A DNA stretch of 64,000 nt from Ahrensia sp. (lineage in GTDB: Bacteria; Pseudomonadota; Alphaproteobacteria; Rhizobiales; Rhizobiaceae): NCBI GenBank assembly GCA_002706335.1, contig PAKZ01000039.1:1-64000 (forward strand), given 5' to 3'. Both the position numbers and the translations under genes were made by a program. The notes under the pieces are model-generated. The model saw only the letters and a list, made by a program, of their open reading frames with translations. It was not told the DNA's origin and ran no database searches. This document shows, piece by piece, positions 30,363 through 56,322 of the stretch (position 1 is the first letter of the stretch; every line of letters begins with the position of its first letter).

Positions 30363-30452
30363 GGAGAGGTGGCAGAGTGGTCGAATGCACCGCACTCGAA
30401 ATGCGGCATACGGGTGACCGTATCGGGGGTTCGAATCCCCCCCTCTCCGCCA
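30363..30452 (+). tRNA. tRNA-Ser (anticodon CGA)
   Basis: The acceptor stem GGAGAGG (30363-30369) pairs with CCTCTCC (30442-30448), followed by the discriminator G and an encoded CCA (30450-30452). The anticodon stem is ccgca/tgcgg with loop ctCGAaa, anticodon CGA at 30397-30399. A long variable arm (catacgggtgaccgtatc) marks it as a class II serine tRNA, and the T-arm GGGGGTTCGAATCCCCC is regular. It reads UCG. No integrase or repeated 3' end was seen nearby, so it is not obviously an integration site. Confidence 0.97.
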
Positions 30453-51961: not shown

Positions 51962-53914
<1,953 letters not shown>

Positions 53915-54045: not shown

Positions 54046-54450
54046 ATGAAACGCATTCTTCTTGCCCTGATCGCCGCCGCGACCGCAACAAGCGCCATGG
54101 CCGGTATCGGCGATATACAGAGTGGCGGCGGAACCGGTCCGCTCAAGGTGAAATCCGCGATGGTCGCGATCAAGTCGCCCACCGGCGTCTGCCCGGCGCA
54201 AGCCAAGCTGAAGGCCTGGATCTACACGAACAAGGCCGGCCCGGTTACTTACATGATGATCCGGCACGGCCAGGGCGCCAGCGTTCCGCAGGTGGTCAAC
54301 ACGAAGAAGGTCAATGGCCTCTACGTGGCCGAGATCTCCCAGAACATGGTCATCGTCAACGCGATCGACACGCAGTATCGCATCGCGGCCAAGGGCGCAG
54401 GAAACTACACGCTGTCGAACTGGGCGCCGCTCAAGGCGAATTGCGTCTAA
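54046..54450 (+). CDS. secreted protein of unknown function
   Basis: A 134-residue protein with a signal peptide (about 1-19, RILLALIAAATATSAMA). The mature part starts GIGDIQSGGGTGP and contains two cysteines, one in TGVCPAQAKLKAW (about 48) and one three residues from the end (NCV), which may form a disulfide in the periplasm. The rest is beta-rich with VTYMMIRHGQGA and LYVAEISQNMVIVNAIDTQYRIAAKG. I recognise no family. ATG 54046 has the Shine-Dalgarno ggagaaag. ATG 54034 is also in frame. It is flanked by acs and the structured RNA. Confidence 0.7.
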   Translation: MKRILLALIAAATATSAMAGIGDIQSGGGTGPLKVKSAMVAIKSPTGVCPAQAKLKAWIYTNKAGPVTYMMIRHGQGASVPQVVNTKKVNGLYVAEISQNMVIVNAIDTQYRIAAKGAGNYTLSNWAPLKANCV

Positions 54451-54556
54451 TCCGGTAACGCGCGAAAGGCGGTGGCATTTTTGCGCCGCCCCTTGCGCTC
54501 GAGCGGATAGCGTTCCACATTGTTGGTGTCTTCAACAATTGAAAGGAGGTGATCCG

Positions 54557-54622
54557 ATGTCGAGTGATTCTATGGTTCCGGGACGGTCTATGCGGGTCTT
54601 ACTCCGTCGGAGCAGCCTCTGA
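54557..54622 (+). CDS. 21-residue micro-ORF in the structured RNA
   Basis: It reads MSSDSMVPGRSMRVLLRR and then SSL: basic and hydrophobic at its end, with five arginines. It has a near-consensus Shine-Dalgarno ending 2 nt before the ATG (aaaggaggtgatc complements the 16S 3' end closely). Its stop codon is in the 3' arm of the 54603-54626 hairpin. It may encode a peptide, or it may act as a leader whose translation changes the downstream fold. Too short for family assignment. Confidence 0.6.
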   Translation: MSSDSMVPGRSMRVLLRRSSL

Positions 54623-54697
54623 CGGACAGTTACCCCTTGCAACCGGATTGACGCCGAGGCGTCACGGTCCGACGACCGTCCGGTTCCCGGAATTGCG

Positions 54698-54724
54698 AAG
54701 GCCGCCCGAAAGGGCGGCCTTTTC
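54698..54724 (+). terminator. intrinsic terminator with GAAA tetraloop
   Basis: aaggccgccc (54698-54707) and gggcggcctt (54712-54721) pair perfectly around GAAA, followed by ttc. On the minus strand no T-tract follows, so it serves the plus-strand RNA rather than the VWA gene. Confidence 0.9.
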
Positions 54725-54748
54725 ATATTGCGGGTTTTTTCCAGTCGG

Positions 54749-56059
54749 TCAGTTGACCAGTCTGAGCCCCTTGATGTCCCGTGCGATTTCGAGGAACGCG
54801 GCTTTGAGATCCGCTTCATCAGTGGCGTTGTAGTAGAGTTTCTCGCCGGCCGACGTGGAAGCGCATTTCTTCATCAGAGCTTCCGCATCCGAGCCGGCAG
54901 CGAAGGCGATGGAGTAGATCTTGATTCCGCTGTTCTTCATCGCCGAACAGAGGTTTTCGGCATAGGTCTCCGACCAGTTCGCACCGGAATTTGAGCAGGA
55001 ATAGCCGCCGGTCTCGAATGTGTTGAATTCGCCGTCGGTCATGATGATCGCATATTTGCTGACGCCGGGCTTGTCATAGGCTTCCGGGTCGGAGCCTTCC
55101 GGCCATGCCGCTGCCCACTTGGGCGACAGCATGTAGTAGGACCAGGCAACAGCGAGATGACCTGCTGTGCAGCCACCGGCGCCGAAAGCGTCGATCTCGG
55201 ATTTCAGCGTAGCTTTGTTCATCGTGAGCGGTACGATTTTCGCGCTCGGGCAGTTGTAGTCCGAGGAGGTGATCTTGGCCGCGCTGGTCGCGAAAGCGTC
55301 GGTGTATTTTTCGGTCCCGGTCCTTTCGGCCACGCAATCCGGATAGGTGGTCTCCGTTTTACACTTCTTGCCGTTTTTGTTGCAGGTGGTCTTGGTGAGC
55401 CCGGTCGTCTTGATCGCGTCGATCACCGGCGCGGCGTTCACTGCTTCCGAATAGGGGACCAGCCCGACGCGGATGCGGTCGCCCACGCTGGCGCCGTCGA
55501 ACAGCGTGTTCAGGCCGAGATTAGCCGCGTCCTGGAGCGCCGAAAGCTTTGTCGGCGTGCCCCCCCCGCCGATCCTGTTGCCCATCGAACCGGTGATATC
55601 GAGCGCCATGACAACCTCGATCTCGGTGTTGGAGAATTTGGCCTTCGATTCGGCGTCGATGCGATGATTGTTGTAACCGACAATGCCCGCAAACGTCATC
55701 GGCATCAGCGTATGCGCCTTGATGTCGACCGACCGGTTGACCTTGTCCACGGTGATCGAATCGACCGTCACCGTGTCGGCTGTCAGGTTTCGATTGTCGA
55801 GATTGGCGTCGAGATACTTGCGCACCGTCACCTCGGCATCGGCGATCGAGACCACCCCGAGCGTCAGATCCTGGGTCGTGGCGAGCGCCGCGGCATCGAC
55901 GGCGGATGTCAGCTTGTTGTGCACGGCGAACATGCGGGCGACGTCGATCGCCAGCGCCGAGCCCATGAGAAGCGTCGTTCCCAGCACCGCGAACATGATA
56001 CCGAAATTGCCGCGGCGGTCGCTGGCGAAATCCTTGATACGGTCTAACACGATACGCAC
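54749..56059 (-). CDS. TadE/TadG-like VWA-domain protein
   Basis: A 436-residue protein. Residues 1-20 are basic, followed by a transmembrane helix (about 19-40: FGIMFAVLGTTLLMGSALAIDVARMF), the Tad pilus N-terminal (TadG-type) region, and a von Willebrand A domain (about 148-430) with the MIDAS motif DITGSMGNRIGGG and later IIMTDGEFNTFE. The insert between these holds at least six cysteines (TTCNKNGKKCK, YPDC, DYNCPS, GGCTAGH). I chose GTG 56059 because it has the Shine-Dalgarno aaggag. No other tad genes are in the window, so it may be a single outlying pseudopilin-associated gene. Confidence 0.85.
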   Translation of the reverse strand: MRIVLDRIKDFASDRRGNFGIMFAVLGTTLLMGSALAIDVARMFAVHNKLTSAVDAAALATTQDLTLGVVSIADAEVTVRKYLDANLDNRNLTADTVTVDSITVDKVNRSVDIKAHTLMPMTFAGIVGYNNHRIDAESKAKFSNTEIEVVMALDITGSMGNRIGGGGTPTKLSALQDAANLGLNTLFDGASVGDRIRVGLVPYSEAVNAAPVIDAIKTTGLTKTTCNKNGKKCKTETTYPDCVAERTGTEKYTDAFATSAAKITSSDYNCPSAKIVPLTMNKATLKSEIDAFGAGGCTAGHLAVAWSYYMLSPKWAAAWPEGSDPEAYDKPGVSKYAIIMTDGEFNTFETGGYSCSNSGANWSETYAENLCSAMKNSGIKIYSIAFAAGSDAEALMKKCASTSAGEKLYYNATDEADLKAAFLEIARDIKGLRLVN

Positions 56060-56322
56060 GGTCACACTCCTTCTGGCGCGATCATGCCGGTCGACCGGCA
56101 TATGGCGTGCCACGCGGATGCGGAGATTAGTGCGTCATCCTTGTCGGATAGCTAATTTCGGGCGTTCCGCGCTCCGGATCGCGAAACGAGATGAACGGCC
56201 GGTTAATGCGGTTCGGCAATTTTGGCTCAGCCCGTAAGCATGAACGCAAGCTCTTCCGGACAGCGCGCCGAAACGGGACAGGAAAGGCGGTCGGCGTGCC
56301 GTTTCGGTACGGCGACATGGAG
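56060..56322. other. intergenic region, nothing identified
   Basis: These 263 bp hold no gene I can support. Both flanking genes (the VWA gene and the DUF1674 gene) are on the minus strand, so the VWA promoter should lie in the part closer to 56060. I saw no clear promoter, terminator or repeat. Confidence 0.5.

Follow-up and report, generated by a model that had tools for sequence, protein, structure and literature searches.

A structured RNA with a conserved micro-ORF in Ahrensia sp. that looks like a free-standing RNA gene common to many alphaproteobacteria

The window analysed here is the whole 64,000 nucleotide stretch of contig PAKZ01000039.1 from Ahrensia sp. (positions 1 to 64,000). 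A compact RNA carrying a micro-ORF and several helices had been proposed in it from the letters of the sequence. The locus is organised as follows:

51962-53914, plus strand: acetyl-CoA synthetase-like gene (AMP-binding, ACAS_N), upstream of the RNA
54049-54451, plus strand: small protein whose start resembles, by eye, a signal peptide; no Pfam match; directly upstream of the promoter-like sequence
54492-54521, plus strand: promoter-like pair, CTTGCG (54492-54497) and CACATT (54516-54521), of the CTTG-n-CCAYATT pattern, upstream of the RNA
54528-54726, plus strand: whole RNA, about 199 nt; match to model R1 of 112 bits, 2.1e-29, the window sequence being itself in the model
54541-54555, plus strand: extended Shine-Dalgarno (SD) block GAAAGGAGGTGATCC, complementary to what we take to be the 3′ end of 16S rRNA
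54557-54622, plus strand: micro-ORF, ATG to TGA, 21 codons, MSSDSMVPGRSMRVLLRRSSL; frame open in 70 distinct model hits
54697-54724, plus strand: intrinsic terminator with a GAAA loop, read from the sequence
54749-56113, minus strand: Tad (PF13400) and VWA (PF00092) gene, converging on the RNA and ending 25 bases past the terminator

The element looks like a free-standing structured RNA gene of about 200 bases, common to many alphaproteobacteria. Its transcription start is estimated to lie near 54528, from the spacing of the promoter-like pair. The CTTG-n-CCAYATT pattern is prominent among 163 distinct upstream sequences of homologues, and absent from some. A 5′ hairpin had been drawn at 54519-54539; it straddles the −10 box of this conserved pair, so that its 5′ part is probably not transcribed. 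The GAAA-looped terminator, placed before at 54698-54724, is indeed present, one base longer at its 5′ side. Its helix is paired in 92.7% of cells of alignment A1 (see below), and a terminator was called in 151 of 174 homologous loci.

Neighbouring genes were compared in these 174 loci with a crude ORF caller. The next downstream gene lies on the opposite strand in 103 loci and on the same strand in 51, none being called in 20. Same-strand downstream genes form clusters of at most 5 members; the largest neighbour clusters are a convergent one that includes the Tad/VWA gene, with 34 members, and an upstream one that includes the acetyl-CoA synthetase-like gene of the window, with 27. It had been suggested that the RNA might be a leader separated from its target gene. 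No consistent same-strand gene was found downstream in the 174 loci, which makes a leader function unlikely.

With BLAST, 35 of 61 family relatives gave a match at E<=0.001, a few of them through the terminator alone. With model R1, whose tallies include the window's own genome and other genomes used for the model, 49 of the 61 family genomes were matched at E<=0.01, each by one match at 2.6e-14 or better. In the class, 91 of 240 genomes were matched at E<=0.01 and 57 of 240 at E<=1e-5, three of these 57 matches (G116, G162 and G268) covering only ∼46 bases of the 5′ block. In the phylum, 37 of 200 genomes were matched at E<=1e-4; all but one, G484, belong to the class. The G484 match (L249, 3950-4300) is the sole one among 59 genomes of its order, and by inspection it has an SD, an 18-codon frame MSRVKVFGQAAMSEGRSS and a terminator. 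Genomes usually carry one strong copy; G072 has two. Some loci among the matches listed are titled Gammaproteobacteria; the title of an assembled genome is weak evidence, however. Part of the loci listed come from pattern searches in which the SD and some start positions were prescribed, and their conservation there partly reflects this choice. The recurrence of homologues in family and class, together with a covarying stop-codon hairpin, speaks for an element beyond chance.

A relation to a known family was also found. In a search of 1.2 kb, Rfam RF01867 (CC2171, a Caulobacter sRNA) matched 54533-54720 with 39.2 bits, for a cutoff of 75 (E 1.7e-6), and the alignment covers model positions 1-159 of 159, i.e. 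the full length, with a shared 5′ block. Because the whole model is matched, yet below cutoff, we regard the window RNA as homologous to CC2171 yet beyond the limits that Rfam sets for the family. CC2171 reportedly stems from the work of Landt in 2008. Relatives of the window RNA score best at ∼70-91 (90.7 at the top), the remainder being graded down to ∼29; the cutoff was exceeded by 3 of 20 loci in one set, by none of 20 from the family and by 3 of 20 from the class. Common to CC2171 and the window RNA are the 5′ block CAACAAU-GAAAGGAGGUGAUCC, followed by the start triplet and UC, the terminator, and a helix between a segment close to the start and the strand that precedes the terminator (P1 in the window, see below). 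They differ in that CC2171-like rows have a CUGGAUC-type segment where the window type has GGAGCAGCC.

Rfam 15 records an improved structure for RF01867, the gain being one covarying pair (PMC11701678). In Mesorhizobium huakuii, the candidate MH_s33 is annotated as CC2171/RF01867, is intergenic, and gives an RNA-seq product of 215 nt (PMC5596092), near the length of the window RNA. The two are likened by annotation and length, and the accessible part of that report mentions no ORF for MH_s33. As far as the texts available to us go, our literature search found no account of this RNA beyond these two papers. Discovery of an Rfam leader with a clear role would have changed the picture; what was matched is RF01867, below cutoff, and it carries no stated role in the accessible parts of these sources.

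We then considered the micro-ORF and its ribosome binding site. A perfect SD, expected at 54542-54554, was found at 54541-54555, and the block GAAAGGAGGTGATCC has a single exact copy in the window's assembly. When a 16S rRNA gene was looked for, 0 of 2 genomes gave a match, and none was matched in the window's assembly. The SD core is invariant in alignment A1, the rows of which were picked by that motif. The 21-codon ORF was read directly as it had been proposed, from its ATG to the TGA at 54620-54622, but with four arginine codons, not five. Homologous ORFs have 18-30 codons. Their frames were counted in 70 distinct hits out of 71 loci, with an NTG triplet required after the SD and with an overlap with the model-building sequences; in another set, 58 of 59 loci were mapped. 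All 70 ORFs had ended by codon 30. A stop within the first 20 codons was present in 2 of the 70 hits for frame 0 (both 18-codon frames), 38 for frame +1 and 57 for frame +2. For codons 7-20 alone, the hits with a stop were 2, 36 and 16, respectively. The first base of the start triplet, under the NTG requirement, was A in 53 hits, G in 13, T in 3 and C in 1.

The peptide behaves differently from the frame. Among 81 equal-length ORF pairs, any ORF being allowed in two pairs, 131 synonymous single changes were counted, vs 123.1 expected, and 336 non-synonymous ones, and changes are distributed 329/336/303 over the three codon positions. By this synonymous-change count, no amino-acid selection on the peptide was detected in the 81 pairs. 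The RGCARYC element, present in 130 of 174 loci and not found in 44, is read in three frames (71, 14 and 6 of 91 distinct contexts), and lies 3′ of the stop codon in L050 and L079. Peptides of L104 (Oricola nitratireducens) and L108 (Oricola indica) are the same as those of the same-genus loci L002 and L003, and Oricola is probably the genus of the window. The reading frame thus appears to be conserved, and the peptide sequence not. Recurrent MSS and EQP residues are probably an RNA-level by-product of P1 and of the element. A frame kept open over a seemingly neutral peptide suggests that what matters is ribosomes on the RNA, not the peptide, and the micro-ORF is probably translated, to judge from its evolution.

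The helices considered, besides the terminator, are:

54564-54571, plus strand: P1, 5′ strand GTGATTCT, codons 3-5, pairing with 54689-54696
54581-54588, plus strand: P1b, 5′ strand GGACGGTC, codons 9-11, pairing with 54674-54681
54603-54626, plus strand: P2, hairpin of 10 bp containing the GGAGCAGCC element and the stop codon; covariation
54641-54685, plus strand: local three-way junction made of a closing stem and two arms, in competition with P1b; partly kept in 11 near relatives
54674-54681, plus strand: P1b, 3′ strand GACCGTCC, shared in part with the three-way junction
54689-54696, plus strand: P1, 3′ strand GGAATTGC, immediately before the terminator; in 11 near relatives, 83 of 88 cells are paired

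Alignment A1 has 57 sequences, chosen by hand from a list of 96 that had been thinned from 141; L005, absent from the list, was added. With pairs chosen after inspection of the same rows, double changes were counted in A1 at 7 of 7 modelled pairs of P1 (84.1% of cells paired) and at 6 of 7 modelled pairs of P2. Five CC2171-like rows have gaps at P1 because MAFFT did not align that strand. The covariation score of the hand-named structure in A1 was 0.354, compared to 0.191 when shuffled and at most 0.147 when slid. RNAalifold, run on the 57 rows, predicted the terminator and a 3-bp SD hairpin only, P1 and P2 not being predicted.

Because the inside of the ORF does not align, we turned to permutation and sister-pair tests. 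For P1, the score with own partners was 13.73, vs 12.10 with permuted ones (z 6.1, 0 of 500 permutations, 82 sequences), and z was 6.9 on a larger set of 119; both sets, 119 then 82, were drawn from the 151 of 174 loci with a called terminator. P1b, tested as approximately codons 6-12 against the strand immediately before the P1 3′ strand, gave 18.62 vs 14.70 (z 14.2, 0 of 500, 100 sequences after thinning). Two control pairings in the same test gave z 1.1 and −1.8, and a local hairpin upstream of the P1 3′ strand gave z 1.7, with 20 of 500 permutations as high. The 11 near relatives have 73 of 87 P1b cells paired. The sister-pair test used 65 pairs from 131 distinct sequences, some of which are not close (similarity down to 0.02). 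Upon partner swap, it gave 35 v 10 with 9 ties for P1b, 21 v 2 with 4 ties for the lower stem of P2, and a weak 16 v 8 with 21 ties (p 0.076) for P1; a control region gave 23 v 15. Compensatory changes across relatives were seen for P1b and P2, and the hairpin predicted to enclose the stop codon, visible in the sequence, is one that covaries. Support is good for P1b, for P2 and for the open frame, and weaker for P1 and the S1 pairing described below.

The original prediction had centred on a tight three-way junction and a competing helix. The junction, with its stem 54641-54647/54679-54685 and two arms, can pair, but it is local and only partly kept: in 11 near relatives, paired cells are 56 of 76 for the closing stem, 38 of 61 for arm A and 48 of 55 for arm B. 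Both halves of the competing helix are complementary. The first, ttccggg/cccggaa, is paired in 56 of 77 cells of these relatives and overlaps the P1 3′ strand; the second, acggtc/gaccgt, is not a helix of its own but part of the family-wide P1b. P1b is nested within the closing helix P1 (54564-54571 with 54689-54696), which was absent from the earlier list. Mutually exclusive helices are supported by the sequence, and junction and P1b compete within the genus. Across the family, the best-supported rival pairing is with an anti-SD segment internal to the ORF, not with the junction. The strands of this pairing, S1, are:

54545-54550, plus strand: S1i, 5′ strand GGAGGT, which can pair with GCCTCT at 54615-54620; predicted in the RNA ended at +75
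54551-54556, plus strand: S1ii, 5′ strand GATCCG, before the start codon, which can pair with CGGGTC at 54593-54598
54593-54598, plus strand: S1ii, 3′ strand CGGGTC, anti-SD/start segment inside the ORF (swap test, sister pairs, folding)

These ORF segments resemble the presumed 16S 3′ end and are able to pair with the region of the SD and the start. S1i is untestable by covariation because the SD hardly varies. Bases of the S1 segment track bases −1 and +1, with scores of 13.05 v 12.32 (z 7.8, 0 of 1000) in 113 sequences, left after thinning the 191 of 195 that have one of the three main start contexts (the other 4 were omitted), and with permutations that ignore relatedness. The own start context was strictly best in 74 of 92 GA-type and 13 of 19 AG-type members, and in 27 of 80 AA-type members; AA-type starts showed no preference in this swap test (own 12.21 v 12.40 and 12.21). 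Sister pairs differing at S1ii gave 10 v 2, with 4 ties. In folding, RNAs ended at +75 had an SD-ORF pairing probability >0.5 in 77 of 96 cases, vs 92 of 288 with shuffled ORFs. At +95 the SD was paired with the ORF in 46 of 96 RNAs; of the 96 full-length RNAs, 9 showed this pairing and 61 had P1 above 0.5. Anti-SD segments may mask the SD in the nascent RNA. In the window RNA, however, the SD core no longer pairs with the ORF at +95 (0.02; 0.50 for GATCCR), when the P1 3′ strand does not yet exist, which speaks against a simple switch.

Rhizobium-type sequences depart from this scheme. Their S1 score, 9-11 in 5 rows, is at background (shuffled baseline 10.65), and in the 8 sequences folded, a CCTTCC-type segment 3′ of the stop offers a partner for the changed SD AAGGAAGG, even at full length. 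Such full-length pairing, if it forms, speaks against a simple switch that is off when nascent and open when complete. Masking of the SD by some internal segment is predicted to recur, with a geometry that depends on the group. In Rhizobium-type loci such as L193, L195 and L205, the masking segment looks as if it had changed along with the SD AAGGAAGG.

We think it somewhat probable that the element is a free-standing, translation-gated regulatory RNA, a distant homologue of CC2171, with a micro-ORF that is translated and a peptide that is dispensable. In the nascent RNA, the anti-SD segments of the ORF would mask the SD. P2 would form later, then P1 and P1b once the 3′ end is made, leaving the SD and AUG in a single-stranded tail. 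Ribosomes loading at the SD would have to melt P1 and P1b in order to translate, so that ribosome traffic would set the fold, and hence the activity or stability of the RNA. The conserved frame, the neutral amino acids, the promoter-like pair, the terminator and the P1b and P2 helices all come from sequence comparison; the order of folding is a prediction. A related proposal, possible but tentative, is that translation itself is the function. The 5′ tail, nearly fully complementary to the 16S 3′ end, would capture 30S subunits beside the long helix, which has to be melted, and a sequence-neutral ORF of 18-30 codons would free the ribosome. This ancient RNA would then serve as a self-releasing trap for ribosomes, or sense the capacity for initiation, its built-in mimic of the 16S tail being the off state.

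The main rival, rather unlikely in our opinion, is a trans-acting sRNA of the CC2171 kind, where the SD-like block and the frame are incidental, or the block is kept for 16S pairing, and the ORF is hardly translated. RF01867 is filed in Rfam as an sRNA and the peptide is apparently neutral, as this would predict. In addition, ribosome profiling in Caulobacter, in the part of the report available, describes intergenic ncRNA regions as not translated (PMC4117421), which also counts against the preferred reading. Still, the absence of frame-0 stops from the first 20 codons of 68 of 70 hits, the end of the frame by codon 30 in all 70, and the first bases of the start triplets (A 53, G 13, T 3, C 1, within the required NTG) are hard to explain without translation. 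Should the peptide be the product, with structures that merely tune its expression, the strong SD and the narrow range of ORF lengths would be accounted for. Such a micro-peptide gene is improbable: there is no clear synonymous excess, changes spread over the codon positions as given above, the conserved element is read in three frames, and the recurrence of MSS and EQP would be expected at the RNA level. This substitution pattern and the frame-switching element led us to disfavour the peptide as product.

Type I toxin mRNAs such as hok have a short ORF, long-range pairing of 5′ and 3′ ends and a masked ribosome binding site. The long-range P1/P1b helices and the predicted masking of the nascent SD recall them; the window RNA differs by the lack of a conserved peptide, the one it encodes being apparently neutral and, by inspection, not hydrophobic, so that kinship with these mRNAs is the least credible of the readings. 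A leader or attenuator of the following gene, lost or separated here, is very improbable as well. A micro-ORF, alternative helices and a terminator do follow the logic of a leader, but the inconsistency of same-strand downstream genes given above led us to rule out, on context, the leader of a lost gene. A comparison can be made with rnTrpL of Sinorhizobium meliloti, described in the accessible text as a dual-function attenuator sRNA derived from the trp attenuator and encoding a functional peptide (PMC10117765). Both are small RNAs bearing a short ORF, which is translated in rnTrpL; in the window RNA, by contrast, the downstream gene is not consistent and the peptide appears to be neutral.

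A named but unexplained sRNA family appears to extend well beyond its Rfam model and to carry a conserved reading frame with a seemingly neutral peptide. Were translation itself the function, we would have here an unusual example of an RNA controlled directly by ribosomes or acting directly on them. The RNA is carried by relatives of tractable laboratory bacteria, and the readings give simple, testable predictions.

Other Rfam families were rejected as relatives. BSR0602 (RF02609) scored 17.2 bits (E 0.35) for a gathering cutoff of 191, with no match at E<=0.1 in 20 loci, and RNAI, BjrC1505, RcsR1 and STnc320 scored far below their cutoffs. At L183, an ar14 sRNA (RF02344, 61.7 bits, above cutoff) lies near the RNA on the other strand (1742-1863, minus). 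In the window, the sole Rfam match above cutoff is a tRNA at 30363-30449, on the plus strand.
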